From NCBI GenBank assembly GCA_016790075.1, contig JAEUPP010000070.1, positions 1 to 64,000 on the forward strand: 64,000 nt of DNA, in the 5' to 3' direction. Positions 17,653 through 24,876 of this stretch are shown here, one piece after another (the stretch's first letter is position 1; each line of letters opens with the position of its first letter). This stretch comes from Rhodanobacteraceae bacterium. GTDB lineage: Bacteria; Pseudomonadota; Gammaproteobacteria; Xanthomonadales; Rhodanobacteraceae. The translations under genes were made by a program, and so were the position numbers. The notes beneath the pieces are model-generated. The model had not been told where the DNA came from and did not search any database. It was given only the letters and a program-made list of their open reading frames with translations.

Positions 17653-19006
17653 TCTGGCAGGCAAGCGGGTCGCGGTCTGGGGTTACGGCCGGGAAGGCAG
17701 CGCGACACTGGCGGCTCTGCGCCGGCGCCTGCCGGGGCAGCGCCTGAGCCTGATCTGCAGTGCCGCTGAAGCGGAGCTGGCGCGCGGTCTCCATCATGAC
17801 GCACTCGACTACGTGACGGTCGAGCCCTACGCCGGCCTGCTCTGGGGATTCGATGTCGTGGTCAAGTCACCGGGCATCAGCCGGTACCTGCCGGCCATCG
17901 TCGATGCCCTTGCTGCAGGTGTGTGCTTCACCTCGGCCACGGCGCTGTGGTTTGGCGAGAACCCGCTGGCGACCACCGCCGGCGTCACAGGCACCAAAGG
18001 CAAAAGCACGGTAAGTGCCCTGATCACGCATTTGCTGCGCAGCCTGGGTCAACGCGTCGCCCTCGCCGGCAATATCGGCCTGCCCCTGCTTGAGCTGCTC
18101 GATACGCCGGAACCGGTGGATTGCTGGGTTGTGGAATTGTCCAGCTTTCAGACGGCCGATGCCGAGCGCGTCGATGTTGGCCTGGTCAACAACATCTATG
18201 AAGAGCACCTGGACTGGCATGGCTCGCGCGAGCGCTACGTCAGCGACAAGCTTGCCCTGGTCGAGCACTCGACTACGCTGGTCGTCAATGGGCTGCAGCC
18301 TGAGCTTGTAGCCCGTACGGCGACGCATCCACATCGGCGCGTGTTCGGCGATGTAGCGGGCTGGCACCTGGCTGAGGGCATGATCATGCACGGCCACGAG
18401 CACTGCCTGGACCTGCGCCAGTTGCCGCTCGCGGGCGAACACAACGCGCTGAACCTTTGTGCCGCGCTGACCGTGGTCGACGCACTTGGCTTTGATGCGC
18501 ACGCCGCGTTGCCGGCGGTGGCGACGTTCCGTCCGCTTCCACACCGGTTGCAGGCCCTGGGCGAGCAGGGCGGGCTGACCTGGATCAACGACAGCATCTC
18601 GACCACGCCGCAGGCAACAATAGAAGCCTTGCGCAGCCTTGAAGGACGGGCGGTCAGCGTGCTCGTCGGCGGTTTCGACCGCGGTCTGGACTGGGGTGAA
18701 TTTCAGCGCTACGTCGCCTCGCGGCCGCCGGCCGCGGTGATCTGTCTCGGTGCCAGCGGCGCACGCATCGCGCGCCAGCTCGGCGCGGCGGCGCCGGCCT
18801 ATCGGTTAGGTCAATGCGTGTCGCTGGCCGAGGCCGTGGCGCACGCGCGCAGCTGGACACCCGGCGGCGGCGTAGTCCTGCTGTCGCCGGGAGCGCCGAG
18901 TTTCGATCAATTTCGCGACTATGCCGATCGCGGCCGCGCCTTTACCCAGCTCGCCGGTTTCGATCCGCAGTCGATCGTGGCCATAGCCGGCGTCGGCATT
19001 GCCTGA
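17639..19006 (+). CDS. murD2: UDP-MurNAc-L-alanine--L-glutamate ligase (MurD2)
   Basis: This Mur ligase of 455 residues adds glutamate to UDP-MurNAc-L-Ala in the cytoplasm. The ATP P-loop is GVTGTKGKST at about residues 115-124, and the middle domain shows VELSSFQ and NNIYEEHLDWHGS. The C-terminal domain contains INDSISTTPQAT and LVGGFDRGLDWGEF. In the MurD2-MurL pathway the ligase accepts L-Glu, and MurL then epimerises the product. The neighbourhood, not a diagnostic residue, is the reason for calling it MurD2 instead of MurD. ATG 17639 lies inside the end of murL. It is the last gene of the lysAC operon and converges with the fmdB-like gene. Confidence 0.87.
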   Translation: MRIADLAGKRVAVWGYGREGSATLAALRRRLPGQRLSLICSAAEAELARGLHHDALDYVTVEPYAGLLWGFDVVVKSPGISRYLPAIVDALAAGVCFTSATALWFGENPLATTAGVTGTKGKSTVSALITHLLRSLGQRVALAGNIGLPLLELLDTPEPVDCWVVELSSFQTADAERVDVGLVNNIYEEHLDWHGSRERYVSDKLALVEHSTTLVVNGLQPELVARTATHPHRRVFGDVAGWHLAEGMIMHGHEHCLDLRQLPLAGEHNALNLCAALTVVDALGFDAHAALPAVATFRPLPHRLQALGEQGGLTWINDSISTTPQATIEALRSLEGRAVSVLVGGFDRGLDWGEFQRYVASRPPAAVICLGASGARIARQLGAAAPAYRLGQCVSLAEAVAHARSWTPGGGVVLLSPGAPSFDQFRDYADRGRAFTQLAGFDPQSIVAIAGVGIA

Positions 19007-19021
19007 AGCGGGCAGCTATCT

Positions 19022-19303
19022 TCAGTCGCCGCTGATGAAGTCCGGGCCCTTGCCGGCGGTCTTTTCGTAGACGCCGCCCCCGGCCCGCCGGTACTGGGTG
19101 AAGCCATGTTTGGCAACGTGGCTTTCACTGGTCAGATGACTGTTGCCGATCAGTGTGTTCGGGGCCGAGATCTTGCGGCGCAGCGGAGCGCCGCAGTCCG
19201 GGCAGGTCTGGAGTTCTGCATCGCTGAGTCTCTGCAGATGGTCGAAACCGGGGCCGCAGCGCGCGCACCCTTGTTCCTGCGCTATGTATTCGTAGATCGG
19301 CAT
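19022..19303 (-). CDS. FmdB family zinc-ribbon protein
   Basis: The 93-residue protein starts MPIYEYIAQ and has two CxxC knuckles (CARC near residue 13, CPDC near residue 34), the zinc-ribbon pattern of FmdB-type putative regulatory proteins. The first knuckle is preceded by an unusual EQG insertion. The Gly-rich tail GGGVYEKTAGKGPDF is common in the family. Function is unknown. No good ribosome site is seen before ATG 19303. It ends 16 bases from the convergent murD2 and lies 40 bases after the RNase T gene on the same strand. Confidence 0.8.
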   Translation of the reverse strand: MPIYEYIAQEQGCARCGPGFDHLQRLSDAELQTCPDCGAPLRRKISAPNTLIGNSHLTSESHVAKHGFTQYRRAGGGVYEKTAGKGPDFISGD

Positions 19304-19343
19304 GGTGGTGAAAGACAGATGTCCAGACGAGGGCTGCGCGGGC

Positions 19344-20003
19344 TCAGGCAGCGACGCCGGCGTTCGCTTCCGCGCTGCGCCGGTAGAGATCGTCCATGGC
19401 CTTCCAGCGGTTGACGATGCTGCAGAACAGGCGTGCCGTCTGCTCGGTATCGTAAACGGCCGAATGTGCTTCGCTGGAATCCCACTCGAATCCCGCAGCC
19501 GCCACTGCTTTCGACAGCACGGTCTGGCCATAAGCGAGACCGGCCAGCGTGGCCGTGTCAAAGCAGCTGAACAAATGGAAGGGGCTGCGCTTGTGTCCGG
19601 TTCGGCGAATTGCGGCGTTCAGGAAACCGAGATCGAACGAGGCGTTGTGACCGACCAGAATCGCGCGCTGGCAATCGGCTGCGCGCATGGCTTTGCGCAC
19701 CGGGCGGAAGATGTGATCCAGAGCTTCCCGTTCATCCAGCGCAGCGCGGAATGGGTGCGTTGGATCTATGCCGGTGATTTCCAGCGCGCGTGGATCGATA
19801 TTGGCGCCGGGAAACGGCACTACATGCGTCGACACGACGGGCGCGGGATGCACCCAGCCGGCGTCGTCCATGCGGATGACGACGGCGGCGATCTCGAGCA
19901 GAGCGTCGCGTTCTGAATCAAATCCGCCAGTTTCGACGTCAACGACGACAGGCAGAAAACCGCGAAAACGCTGAGCGAAACTGACGGGGGCGGACTCGGA
20001 CAT
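19344..20003 (-). CDS. rnt: Ribonuclease T
   Basis: This DEDDh 3'-5' exonuclease trims the CCA end of tRNA and matures other small RNAs. The protein has 219 residues from ATG 20003. Exo I is [10 protein letters not shown] with Asp22 and Glu24, Exo II is [13 protein letters not shown], and Exo III is [11 protein letters not shown]. The segment [21 protein letters not shown] is characteristic of RNase T as opposed to DNA polymerase III epsilon. An upstream extension to 20039 adds residues without motif support. Confidence 0.9.
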
Positions 20004-20058
20004 GGGCGCAGGATACCGGATGCGGCCGACCGCGCCCATTACTACCGGATGGCGGTGC

Positions 20059-20721
20059 TCAACGGCCTAGCCAGCGCGTGGCTAGGCCCAGCCCTGCGGC
20101 GAGGGCCAGAAGGATTATGCCCAGCGCCGGGATCAGCATCAGGAATGGCAGGCCGAGCACGGCGGTGGCCAGCGCCGCGCTCCAAAGATCAGCATGGGCC
20201 GGGACAGGGTATGCCGCGCCGGCGATACGTGACACCAGATGGTCAAGGCTCAGTTTGCCAGCGCCACTGAAGATCAGTGGCAGCAACATGACGACAAACA
20301 GCAAAGGCAGCTTGAAGTTGCCGTGGCCGCTATTGCTGATCGAATAGCCGGCGAGCAGGTCGCTCCACATCGTCCACATGCTGGGCCAATGCACCGCGGC
20401 GGTAGCGACGAAGGTCAGAAACATCAGCGAGAACGCGAAGAAGCGCGTACCGAGGCCGAGCCACAGCATTACTCCGCCTATCAGCTCAAACCAGGTCGCG
20501 ATGCCCCAGGACAGGTCGACCGGTACGATGTCGAACGGCCAGGGAAATTTCTGCTGTATATCCGCAAACCAGTTCTCGCCCTGCAGTTTCTCCCTGCCGG
20601 ATTCCCAGAACTCCCAGCCCATGATCAGGCGCAGCACGGCCGGCGGAATCACTTCAGCGGCGGCCTGCAGGCGAGTGGTGAGCGCATCCCAGGCGGTGAC
20701 CAGGCGTGCTGCGGCGATCAT
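20059..20721 (-). CDS. hvfX: DoxX-like membrane protein, probable HvfX
   Basis: The protein of 220 residues is a DoxX-type inner-membrane protein with about five hydrophobic segments, including [20 protein letters not shown] and [20 protein letters not shown]. DoxX-like HvfX proteins accompany hvfABC operons that make copper-binding modified peptides, and this gene follows hvfC on the same strand. The gap to hvfC is 257 bases without a convincing gene, which is longer than usual for one operon, so it may have its own promoter. ATG 20721 is taken as the start; the frame continues upstream to 20889 but that part reads as noncoding. Confidence 0.78.
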
Positions 20722-20978
20722 GGTGTTGGTCCTTGGCGAAGAATGCTTCACGGGACCGGGTGTCGCGCCATTCGCTTTCGTGCCCGCCCTTGCTAAGGCC
20801 CCGAAAAACCCGAAAGCCTTGCATAGGCAAGGCCTCAATCCACCGTCTCGAAGTATCGATGATCGCCACGCAATACCCGCAACGGCCATGGCCGCACGGC
20901 CAACTACCGTGACGGCGGGCTAAAGCTCACCCTATGGAGCTGAATAAGGTGGCAGCTGCAGCTTTCCCTGCTGGTTAT

Positions 20979-21764
20979 TCAGGCCGGTCGCGTGCCCAGC
21001 AGCGCCTGGCGTGTGTGCAGGTTGCGCAATATGTCGCAGCCTGCTTGCTGCAGTGCTGCGGCGTTGGCCGGCGCGACGTCGCGCAGCAGGCCAGCTACGA
21101 CGTCGGCACCGGTTGCGTCGGTATTGGCCTGCAGGCGTTCGATCAGCGCCGCTGTCAGTGCATTGATTTCGAGAAAGCTGACCTGGTCGCGGCGATCACG
21201 CACCAGCAGCAATAGCGTCGGGTCGGCCGGTGTCTCGGCAGGTCGGTACGCAGCCGAAACGCGCTGGACTGGGAAGCGGTAGCCCAGCACCCATGCCAGC
21301 GGCGAGACAACAGGCACGCCGGCGACGATATCGCCATCGGGATCGTGCGGCAGTGTTGAGATCTCGTGCTCATCGAGGGAAAGGGCGAGCTCAGCCCATT
21401 CGTAGTGGGCGAGTTCGAGCAGGAATGGTTCGTCGCCGCAGCCGTCCTGCTGGCGCTGTTCCAGCCAGCGCAGGAATTCGCGGCCGATTTCGGGAAACAG
21501 CGGCGTCTGGGCACGGTGGCCGCGCAGGAAGGCAGCAATCAATGCGTTCCACGCAGTATCGTCATACAGTGTGCGGATGACGGGAAAATTGCTAGAAAGC
21601 AAACCTTCCACGTTGTTGAAAAATAGCTCGCGATAGACCTGCATGCGCCGGGCGGCGACACCGAGCGGCAATTCGGTACGTTCGGGTTCGCGGATACAGG
21701 CGGCGAAGTCGCGCTGCAGCGCGTGCAGCTCAGCCGCGGGCGATGTGGCGTTTGAGGTCGGCAT
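20979..21764 (-). CDS. hvfC: HvfC family RiPP maturation partner (DUF2063)
   Basis: The 261-residue protein begins with a DNA-binding-like DUF2063 domain ([36 protein letters not shown]). Proteins of this family bind the MNIO enzyme HvfB and help it recognise the precursor peptide. ATG 21764 gives MPTSNATSP and overlaps the hvfB end by 35 bases; an in-frame ATG 21794 is less likely. Just past the stop, CTGAATAA (20940-20947) and TTATTCAG (20975-20982) form an inverted repeat that may end the transcript. The hvfA-hvfB-hvfC order is the standard one. Confidence 0.88.
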
Positions 21765-22605
21765 GGCGCCCCTGCAGATCGCGGATATGGTCAAGTTCGG
21801 CGACGAGCTCGGTCAGCGGCGGAAAATTGAAGTCGCGTTCGAGCAAGGTCGGGCGTACGCCCAGGTGGGTGTAGGCGCGTTCGAGAAGACTCCATACAGG
21901 ATCGATGACGGCCGCGCCGTGGGTGTCGACCTTGAGCCCGGGTTCCTCGTCATAATGGCCTGCGACGTGGTAGTAGGCGATGCGTTCGGCCGGCATGGCA
22001 TCAAGGAACGCGGCCGCGTCGTAGCCGTGATTCACGCTGTTGACATGAATGTTGTTGATGTCGAGCAGCAAATCGCAGTCGGCTGCTGCGATGATTTCGC
22101 GCACGAAGTCGACTTCGTCCATTTCCCGGCCTGGGGCGGCGTAATACGACACGTTTTCCACCGCTATGCGTCGGCCGAGCAGGTCCTGGGTGCGGCGTAT
22201 GCGTGCAGCGACCCAATCGACGGCGGCGCGCGTAAACGGAACAGGCATCAGATCGTAGAGGTGACCGTCGTCGCTGCAGTAGGACAGATGCTCGCTGTAC
22301 AGTGCGACACCGTGTGTGTCGAGCAGACGGCGGATCTTCGCGATCAGGGTCTCATCCAGCGGCTCGGGTCCACCCAGGCTGAGACTTAACCCGTGGCAGA
22401 CGAATGCATGGCGCTCGGTGTAGCTGCGTAACTGACGCCCTAGCGCGCCACCGACGTTGATCCAGTTTTCCGGCGCGATCTCAAAGAAGTCGATGGCCGC
22501 CGCGGGCATGCCCGTTGTGGCGGGGTAACCGTGCTCGGCAAGCGGGCCCAGCAGGGCCCGCCGCAGGCCTAGGCCCGCGCCGATGGGAGCGTAGCGCGGG
22601 CTCAT
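21730..22605 (-). CDS. hvfB: HvfB, MNIO-type RiPP maturase (DUF692)
   Basis: HvfB is a multinuclear iron-dependent oxidative enzyme of the DUF692 family. Characterised homologues convert cysteines of EGKCG motifs to oxazolone/thioamide copper ligands. The 291-residue TIM-barrel protein shows the expected metal-binding segments: [38 protein letters not shown] and HVAGHYDE with DTHG. ATG 22605 has GGAG five bases upstream and lies 11 bases after the hvfA stop, so the enzyme and its likely substrate are co-expressed. It overlaps hvfC. Confidence 0.92.
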
Positions 22606-22616
22606 ACGGGCTCCGC

Positions 22617-23111
22617 TTAGGACGGCTGGCCGCCGCAGGAACCTTCCTTGCCCTTCTTGTCGCCGCCGCAGGAGCCTTCCTTGCCCTTCTTGTCGCCGCC
22701 GCAGGAACCTTCCTTGCCCTTCTTGTCGCCGCCGCAGGAACCTTCCGCGCCCTTCTTGTCGCCGCCGCACTTGCCTTCGCCGCACTTGCCTTCCTTGCCC
22801 TTGTGCGCGGCATCTACTTCGGCCTTGCTCAGCGAGCCGTTCTTGTCGGTGTCGACCTTGTCGAAGTGCGCGCCCTTCGCCGCGTCGTATTCGGCCTTGG
22901 AGACGGAACCGTCCTTGTTCGTGTCCATCTTGTCCATGCCGCACTTGCCTTCACCACACTTGCCCTCGCCGAAGCCGGTGACCATATAGCCGCTGGCCAG
23001 CTGGTTGAGCTGGAACGCCGTGTCGGCGCTGGCCATCTGCGCCAGCGAGAGGGAACCGATGAAAGCCGTGCCAAGTGCGAGCGTCAGCGGTTTTACGATC
23101 TTCGTGGACAT
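22617..23111 (-). CDS. hvfA: HvfA-like copper-binding RiPP precursor with EF-hand pair
   Basis: The 164-residue exported peptide is the probable substrate of HvfB. Residues 1-29 form a signal peptide ending ASA. All eight cysteines after it sit in EG[KS]CG motifs at Cys52, 57, 110, 115, 126, 137, 148 and 159. Two EF-hand-like loops, [12 protein letters not shown] (about 63-74) and [12 protein letters not shown] (about 88-99), separate the first motif pair from the rest, so the protein looks fit to bind calcium as well as copper. The C-terminus is built of near-identical 11-residue repeats ([11 protein letters not shown]). It is first in the operon. Copper storage or buffering is the inferred role; modification of the EGSCG variants is unproven. 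Confidence 0.88.
22632..22763. repeat. Four tandem 33-bp repeats inside hvfA
   Basis: Units at 22632-22664, 22665-22697, 22698-22730 and 22731-22763 are nearly identical; they differ at an A/G in the second unit and at two bases in the fourth. Each encodes 11 residues of the EGSCG-containing tail. The unit length keeps the reading frame, so copy number could vary between strains without breaking the gene. Confidence 0.9.
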
Positions 23112-23586
23112 TGCAAGTTCTCCGTGGATTGACGGGCCCAGGCCCGCAGGGGTAACTGCTGCTGATGCAGCGATAACACACCACGCGGTGGAGAACCTGC
23201 CAAATCAGCGGGGTTCTGCCCTCCGTACGCGAGGTGCGCTGTCTTATACGCTGATTGCTGCAGTTCGGATGCATGTTGCACTGCAGCGCGTCAGCTTGGA
23301 CAACCAGACCGGAGCGTTACGTGAAATCTTTCGTGCCTGCACGGTGCGCAAGGATATACGTAGCTTCTGATGCTGGACCAGTCGTATACCTGAGGCGAGG
23401 GCCAAGGCCTTCGGTTCGGCGATTGACGATCTCGGCTTAGCGCAAGAAGGATCGTTGCTGCGTGTTTGTGCAACACCGTGGGCGAAGATGCCCACTTTCT
23501 CGCCCGATGATGACAGTGTGATGATGCTGCGGGGATGGAGGGCTGATGCCACGAGCGCGCAGTATGCGCAACGTTCGCGGCAGAAT
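23112..23586. other. Intergenic region upstream of hvfA, no gene seen
   Basis: About 475 bases separate hvfA from the porin terminator. Short open frames exist in several phases but none has a ribosome site, codon pattern or recognisable motif. The region must hold the hvfA promoter; a TATAAG on the minus strand near 23240 is one candidate -10 without a clear -35. No tRNA or known RNA element was recognised. Confidence 0.5.
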
Positions 23587-23611
23587 GCGCTGCCCCGTTG
23601 CGGGGCAGCGC
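23587..23611 (-). terminator. Terminator-like hairpin after the porin gene
   Basis: GCGCTGCCCCG and CGGGGCAGCGC form an 11-bp perfect stem with a 3-base loop, 11 bases past the porin stop codon. No strong T run follows on the minus strand. Confidence 0.6.
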
Positions 23612-23621
23612 CAGATTTAAG

Positions 23622-24800
23622 TCAGAAGTGGATCTGTGCGCGAAGTTCGGTGACTTTCGGGTCCAGCGCCAGCGTGCCCCTGTTGCTGAAGGCGCGGACG
23701 TAGTTTGCCTGAAGCTTGAAATGCTGGCCCAGGTACCAGTTCAGGCCCAGGGTCCAGTCATGTTGCTTGCCGCCGGCGATGACACCATCGTTGAGATCCA
23801 GCGTGGAATAGCGCAGGCCGACTTCGACGGCGCCGGCTTTGTTCCTGGGTTTGACATTGCCGAACGCGCCGCTCTTGTAGGGGCGTGCCTCACCGGTGAG
23901 CACCCAGCTTGCCGAGAGATAGGCGCCTTCGCCGGTGAAATCGCGTGCGGTGCGGCGTGATGCATTGATGGTCAGAAATTCGCCTTGCAGCAGCAAAGGT
24001 CCCCGCAGCCACGCCGCTTCCAGGCCGGTCCGTGTGATCTGGTCGGTGCCGCTGAGGTTGCCGGTATCGACCAGACGCACCGACGTGAGATTGGCTTCAG
24101 GGCGCGCGCGTATGCGTGCAACCTCGTCGTCACGCTGTTCGACGGATCCGGCGAGGCCGAGATGCACCACGGCGGTATCGTTCTTGACCGGATTGAACAC
24201 GGCGCGCGCCGCCCAGGTTGTGCCGTCGTTGTCGCCGTTGAGGTCGCCGCCGCTGAACAGCGCGGCGTTGAGCAGCCAGCCCGGCGCTTGCTCGTAGGTC
24301 CAGTCCAGTCCTACGCGGCGGCCCTGATTCACCGCCTGCACCGGCAGTGCGCGCTCCATGAACGTCGTCGCGCCGGAACCGACTGCGCCTTCCTCGAAGC
24401 CGACCGGAGTCTTGAACTGGCCTACGCGAAAATCGCCAATGTTCTTGCTGAACAGGCGGAAGTAGGCATCGACCCAGAGATGGGAATGGAAGTCATAGCC
24501 GGCGGCGAGTTCCCAGGCGCCGCTCTTGCGTGCATACAGATAAGTTTCCTTGCGCCGCCAGGTTTCGAGGTCGGCGAAGCGCGGCTGGCCATTCGGTAAG
24601 CGATCACCGGAGAAGTGGTTGAGGTCGTACTGGATCGTGCCGCGTGTGCCGTATTCGATACCCGAGCCGCTCTTGAACTTGGTTGGCCAGTCACCCAGCA
24701 AGTCGTAGGCCAGTGCCGGTTTGGCCGGTGCAGTGGTGCTTGCAATACCAAGCAGGAGCAGGGCAGGGAATGGCGCGGTAGCGTAGTTGCGAGATTTCAT
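23622..24800 (-). CDS. Phosphate-selective porin O/P-like outer membrane protein
   Basis: The 392-residue protein has a signal peptide and the alternating beta-strand pattern of the OprO/OprP family. Evidence includes FKSGSGIEYGTRGTIQYDLN, the motif FRVGQFKTPVGFE, FMERALPVQAV, and a C-terminal strand ending in Phe (ELRAQIHF) as required for outer-membrane insertion. ATG 24800 has GGAG upstream; an extension to 24848 is less likely. Homologues pass phosphate or polyphosphate, but many family members have other substrates and the specific lysines cannot be confirmed here. It is monocistronic between the hvf operon and nth. Confidence 0.85.
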   Translation of the reverse strand: MKSRNYATAPFPALLLLGIASTTAPAKPALAYDLLGDWPTKFKSGSGIEYGTRGTIQYDLNHFSGDRLPNGQPRFADLETWRRKETYLYARKSGAWELAAGYDFHSHLWVDAYFRLFSKNIGDFRVGQFKTPVGFEEGAVGSGATTFMERALPVQAVNQGRRVGLDWTYEQAPGWLLNAALFSGGDLNGDNDGTTWAARAVFNPVKNDTAVVHLGLAGSVEQRDDEVARIRARPEANLTSVRLVDTGNLSGTDQITRTGLEAAWLRGPLLLQGEFLTINASRRTARDFTGEGAYLSASWVLTGEARPYKSGAFGNVKPRNKAGAVEVGLRYSTLDLNDGVIAGGKQHDWTLGLNWYLGQHFKLQANYVRAFSNRGTLALDPKVTELRAQIHF

Positions 24801-24876
24801 TACAGACTCCAAAACGATGTGAAAACCATCGTACGGCTGCCGTTCCACGCTCGTGAAAAGGCATTTTGGGCGCGGC

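Follow-up and report, generated by a model that had tools for sequence, protein, structure and literature searches.

Organization of the hvf locus

The window analyzed here is a 64,000-nucleotide stretch of DNA from Rhodanobacteraceae bacterium (assembly GCA_016790075.1, contig JAEUPP010000070.1, positions 1 to 64,000 of the forward strand). On its minus strand, from position 23111 down to 20059, the genes hvfA-hvfB-hvfC-hvfX are read in that order, a set resembling those for copper-binding ribosomally synthesized and post-translationally modified peptides (RiPPs), and the precursor peptide HvfA carries two canonical EF-hand loops set between cysteine motifs. The hvfA gene (22617..23111), called from its sequence, Pfam and NCBIfam models, and relatives, encodes 164 amino acids with eight cysteines and the two loops. 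Domain searches identified hvfB (21730..22605, ATG at 22605) as encoding an MNIO maturase of 291 residues (DUF692, MbnB_TglH_ChrH), and hvfC (20979..21764, ATG at 21764 or alternatively TTG at 21794), whose start overlaps the end of hvfB, as encoding a DUF2063 plus NGO1945_C partner protein. The last gene, hvfX (20059..20721, ATG at 20721), encodes a DoxX-like protein of 220 residues, as indicated by domain searches and relatives. In a mechanical list of open reading frames (ORFs), hvfX started at 20889 and the frame of hvfB within hvfA, at 22944; the alignments with relatives of HvfX and HvfB begin at residue 1 of the shorter products (ATG 20721 and ATG 22605).

An initial annotation, made from the sequence alone, had placed an MNIO maturase, its DUF2063 partner and a DoxX-like protein beside the precursor, and the NCBIfam models bear this out: HvfB scored 421.3 bits against NF003818 (HvfB-family MNIO maturase, cut-off 360), HvfC 284.6 bits against NF050145 (DUF2063-type partner, cut-off 142), and HvfX 133.2 bits against NF050144 (cut-off 80), a DoxX-like model whose gene occurs in many, not all, such clusters. 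HvfA scored 30.6 bits against the KCGExKCG domain of repeated EGKCG motifs (NF050137, cut-off 19.5). Among the best 80 of 586 relatives, the closest named HvfB match was that of Tahibacter caeni (survey locus L036), 87% identical over HvfB residues 1-282, and the precursor of L036 is identical to that of L008, from a genome of the same genus as the window. Judged by these sequence comparisons, the window genome is Tahibacter-like and would belong to the genus Tahibacter. Megablast-level comparison of the locus with 72,556 plasmid records gave no match, and a plasmid origin was dropped on that account.

Architecture of the HvfA precursor

HvfA begins with a likely Sec signal peptide (residues 1-29, boundary ASA/DT, 23025..23111), judged by eye rather than by a prediction program, which leaves a mature region of about 135 residues. 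A leader segment follows (22968..23024) with a conserved F...L..GY pattern, in which F33, G41 and Y42 are invariant across the 47 rows of alignment A2, and which is a possible recognition site for HvfC. The eight cysteines (positions 52, 57, 110, 115, 126, 137, 148 and 159) all lie within EG[KS]CG motifs, of which two precede and six follow the EF pair, just as the initial annotation had described them. The order of elements is two EGKCG motifs (N-side block, residues 49-58, 22938..22967), EF loop 1 (residues 63-74, 22890..22925), EF loop 2 (residues 87-98, 22818..22853, starting 24 residues after the start of loop 1), two further EGKCG motifs (C-side block, residues 107-116, 22764..22793), and four EGSCG motifs (residues 123-160, 22632..22745) that form a 33 bp tandem array with a period of 11 residues.

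The presence of two EF-hand-like loops between the first and later motifs, also claimed at the outset, was confirmed by motif positions, the structure model and Pfam, with EF-hand_5 (PF13202) scoring 33.6 bits against a cut-off of 25.9. These loops are the only canonical ones in all six frames of the window. When the mature region was shuffled 200,000 times, at least one canonical loop arose in 395 cases and two loops in none, so the pair is not a product of composition alone. AlphaFold2 predicted an EF-hand pair with a mean predicted local distance difference test (pLDDT) score of 84.6, flanked by disordered arms. The ligands and predicted fold are right for a Ca2+-type EF hand.

Related precursors and the Tahibacter sister clade

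The survey of EF-hand insertions in homologues that the initial annotation had suggested was carried out with HvfB as anchor. Overlapping searches gave HvfB relatives in 142 of 197 genomes at the family level (E <= 0.001), in 216 of 398 at the order level and 116 of 369 at the class level (both E <= 1e-80), and as the best 80 of 586 in a species-level contig collection; a further 140 stretches (90 from the order and 50 from the class) were taken in from longer, capped lists of matches that lacked a locus. With HvfB identity of at least 50% and duplicates removed, 264 distinct loci were kept, the window included. A motif-bearing upstream ORF was absent from 28 of the 264, ten of which had fewer than 500 bases of upstream sequence. 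The precursor was taken as the upstream ORF with the most EGxC-like motifs (at least two), its start uncurated, and an EF loop was scored as D at position 1, D, N or S at 3 and 5, G at 6 and a hydrophobic residue at 8.

Two canonical loops were found in 55 of 236 distinct precursors and one loop in three, counts that, like those related to them, come from an uneven, HvfB-anchored sample and are not frequencies. Loosening the pattern brought in a single further loop, the first one of L282; in L210, as in L282, there is one non-canonical loop whose ligand positions are retained. The upstream ORF ended within 60 bp of hvfB in 202 of the 236, and in 47 of the 55 with EF pairs. Cysteine motifs flank the pair on both sides in 52 of the 55, the other three (L235, L243 and L244) having them only before it. 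Spacing between loop starts was 24 residues in 11 precursors, 26 in five, 27 in 34, 28 in three and 29 in two. The gap from the last N-side motif to loop 1 was four residues in 49 of 55 (seven in five, six in one), the C-side gap varied from 5 to 18 residues, and glutamate occupied loop position 12 in all 110 loops. Alignment A2 omits eight of the 55 (L217, L219, L224, L234, L235, L239, L243, L244), and alignment A3 holds 54 distinct EF segments. With the window HvfX as query, a match was obtained in five of 15 other loci (Tahibacter-genus L036, L037 and L038, Mizugakiibacter L054 and Lysobacter antibioticus L096) and none in Dokdonella, Pseudoxanthomonas or the rest of the 15, though a more distant HvfX could escape such a search.

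Mapped on a quick tree built from 236 HvfB proteins, the EF state requires 14 changes, as against 44-57 in 200 label shuffles, and therefore follows the HvfB lineage; in this count one-loop precursors were labelled EF and L022 'none' despite its Cys-pair segment, and gain is not distinguishable from loss. The EF state occurs mainly in the order of the window, with separate cases at class level (L055; L250 with L275; L289 with L282). Within the EF segment of Tahibacter, the proportion of nonsynonymous differences (pN) was below that of synonymous differences (pS) in 21 of 21 pairs; a pooled pN/pS of 0.71 over 590 pairs was taken as uninformative.

Sister to the seven Tahibacter loci, with a support of 95 at the join, stand nine loci of a genus designated g9, none of whose precursors keeps both EF loops. 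In seven of them (L017, L018, L020, L021, L022, L024, L025) the slot holds a Cys-pair segment, KC...(K/A)DQDKC or KC...KAAQDKC, after which come repeats of the EGSCS type (in L025, EGACS); the segments of L018 and L022, the two tested, gave no Pfam match at E up to 1. In L032 loop 2 is kept and the loop 1 ligands are lost, and L015 has neither loop nor Cys-pair segment.

This replacement or loss, together with the variable C-side gap, is what would be expected if the EF pair were a passive spacer or solubility module, one that folds and may bind Ca2+ but serves only to separate the cysteine arms, without regulation. We consider a mere spacer rather unlikely, as it should not need intact Ca2+ ligands, and the invariant position-12 glutamate and the near-constant N-side gap also speak against it.

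Predicted cysteine modification

The initial annotation had named oxazolone/thioamide ligands for copper in this family, an assignment now superseded: for oxazolin the modification has been reassigned as 5-thiooxazole (PMC13097082, PMC13419390). HvfBC and FonBC of relatives convert EGKCG cysteines to 5-thiooxazoles, and the products bind copper (PMC13097082, PMC13419390, PMC12538549). At motif position 3, FonBC tolerates A, R or T instead of K (PMC13097082), so that EGSCG is plausible as a substrate. Among position-5 variants described there only Ala was processed, yet an LVHCY motif was modified once; the cysteine of the g9 motif EGSCS, with Ser after Cys, may thus by analogy be modified or not.

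Whether the window enzyme would treat all eight cysteines alike bears on a second alternative, in which only the EGKCG pairs are modified and the EGSCG cysteines stay as free thiols, to bind copper or pair in disulfides as in a metallothionein. A peptide with an isolated single repeat was left unmodified by FonBC (PMC13097082), and the EGSCG repeats of HvfA lie 11 residues apart, both consistent with such a division. The same enzyme's tolerance at position 3 argues the other way, as does the abundance of EGSCG in the C-side part of precursors with EF pairs (41 beside 138 EGKCG), from which it follows that the window HvfB may be adapted to EGSCG; partial modification of this kind seems doubtful.

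Likeness of the EF-hand pair to other EF-hand proteins

Among solved structures, only lanmodulins (6mi5, 8fns) matched HvfA by sequence at E <= 0.01 (E about 8e-7), ungapped over the EF pair. With the EF-segment model, Foldseek also ranked lanmodulin first, weakly (E 0.041), in a list filled by ordinary EF lobes and with no match at E <= 0.001; the whole-precursor model likewise gave none at that threshold, the 50 matches listed being mostly EF-hand proteins and complexes. Membership in the lanmodulins was rejected, since the NCBIfam lanmodulin model scored 26.5 bits against a cut-off of 135, and HvfA differs from them by its added cysteine arms and maturase set. It also lacks the proline at EF loop position 2 that marks lanmodulins. 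The NCBIfam model of the calcium-binding effector XopAW was likewise rejected (29.3 bits, cut-off 120), its aligned part being the EF region.

With eight cysteines in MNIO motifs, a full maturase set, a poor lanmodulin score, no position-2 proline and a structural list of ordinary EF lobes, HvfA is very unlikely to serve chiefly in the sensing or homeostasis of calcium (or of a lanthanide), with copper binding in second place, even though lanmodulins head both the sequence and the structure comparisons and a possible Ca2+ role has been proposed for such proteins (Antoine et al., PMC12452194). Calcium-dependent folding of the EF pair, suggested by the initial annotation as an alternative to metal crosstalk, is nonetheless plausible, given the intact ligands, the confident EF model and the conserved placement.

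Proposed mechanism

We favor, with a probability of roughly 0.6, the reading that this is an EGKCG-type HvfA/captophorin copper-buffering locus in which the EF pair folds with Ca2+ after export. Its basis is the gene set, the motifs, the conservation of the EF loops and the predicted EF fold. Weighing against it is the score of HvfA with the whole-length HvfA equivalog NF050188, 28.7 bits and below the cut-off of 95. Formation of 5-thiooxazoles and Cu(I) binding by HvfA would follow by analogy with studied relatives, and its passage to the periplasm, its binding of Ca2+ and any influence of Ca2+ on how it binds copper are proposed steps of the model.

HvfA would be made with its Sec signal and presented by HvfC to HvfB in the cytoplasm, where HvfB would convert the EG[KS]CG cysteines to 5-thiooxazoles, up to eight, at about -4 Da each; for the mature form (cleaved after residue 29) the calculated mass is 13,513.7 Da when reduced and 13,481.5 Da if all eight cysteines are converted. 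Calcium is low in the cytoplasm and higher in the periplasm, and for this reason the EF pair would probably be apo and loose before export and fold with Ca2+ in the periplasm. The exported mature protein would bind Cu(I) by its modified cysteine arms, with the EF pair as a folded module between the two flexible arms, and the Ca2+-folded pair could keep these close and help pull the chain out.

A more elaborate scheme, which we regard as unlikely, would make HvfA a two-metal RiPP with Ca2+ on the central EF pair as a switch: the chain would be modified unfolded in the cytoplasm, and the exported pair would fold and join the thiooxazole arms into a high-affinity Cu(I) site, calcium thereby gating copper buffering, while the sister lineage would have swapped this switch for a Cys-pair segment working by redox or copper.

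Regulation and genome context

A ribosome-binding site, GGAGAA (23118..23123, minus strand), precedes hvfA and is common to seven aligned Tahibacter-genus sequences. Directly before it, a GC-rich inverted repeat GCGGGC...GCCCG occurs in six of the seven, and farther upstream (23192-23217, minus strand) another inverted repeat, AGAACC...GGTTCT with its arms 11-14 bases apart, occurs in five of the seven. These repeats are a possible regulator site; as the spacing is variable, no promoter is claimed, and no consensus promoter for hvfA was found in 19000-24000, where 1.0 would be expected by chance. A gap of 257 bp separates hvfC from hvfX; within it, a minus-strand hairpin followed by a T-rich stretch (20813..20836, RNA fold z-score -2.48) is a possible attenuator or terminator, and hvfX may be expressed on its own or more weakly. 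Seven such sites were found in the region, with 4.0 expected. On whether copper induces such genes in a relative, a Xanthomonas campestris copper transcriptome study (PMC10924375) is evidence neither way, its main text naming no EF-hand, DUF692, DUF2063, DoxX, calcium or hypothetical protein.

The next gene upstream of hvfA, likewise on the minus strand (23622-24848), is phosphate-selective porin O/P-like and has no known link to the locus. The genome has a second MNIO cluster, of the bufferin kind, on another contig (L002, G000:C77:31239-35033); its precursor matches DUF2282 at 93.4 bits against a cut-off of 22.4, and MNIO, DUF2063 and DoxX-like genes accompany it. Another EF-hand protein of the same genome (L300, G000:C70, near 199.5 kb) has a signal-peptide-like start and is without EGKCG motifs.

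Comparison with known systems

MNIO-made copper peptides are widespread, and the locus raises the question of why some of them carry calcium-type EF hands. In many precursors from Lysobacterales the distance between the first cysteine block and the EF pair is nearly constant, and the Tahibacter sister clade has the pair half-decayed, missing or exchanged for another segment; these lineages thus provide a natural comparison set for calcium control of RiPP folding, export and copper binding.

Several described systems resemble the locus in part. Bufferins (DUF2282, Buf1; PMC12452194), which are copper-related 5-thiooxazole RiPPs, share the MNIO, the DUF2063 partner and the DoxX-like gene and differ in having another precursor family. 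The EGKCG-type captophorins oxazolin (HvfA), fontiphorin (FonA) and gonophorin (PMC13097082, PMC13419390) and bulbicupramide (PMC12538549) share the EGKCG motifs, the MNIO and a DUF2063-type partner; term counts over their accessible text returned no mention of EF-hand or calcium. Among the matches listed in a literature search that left subscription papers and supplements outside, only PMC12452194 paired EF-hand with MNIO.

In that paper, Antoine et al. 2025 described EGKCG/EF-hand chimaeras in MNIO clusters, and the combination is therefore already described and not new; the present locus is a member of the kind. The Buf_EGKCG|EF-hand_5 chimaera shares with it an EGKCG block, two EF-hand_5 domains, the MNIO, DUF2063 and DoxX genes, and an N-side block predicted to be unstructured, as in HvfA. 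The printed wording places the EF hands C-terminal to a short EGKCG block, which fits L235, L243 and L244, whereas HvfA has six further cysteine motifs (four of them EGSCG) after the EF pair and departs from it along with the 52 of 55 sampled precursors flanked on both sides; the supplements may include such cases. Beyond the accessible text of PMC12452194, the present analysis adds three points: a second cysteine arm follows the EF pair, the first arm joins the pair at a nearly constant distance, and in the sister clade the pair has decayed or been replaced.
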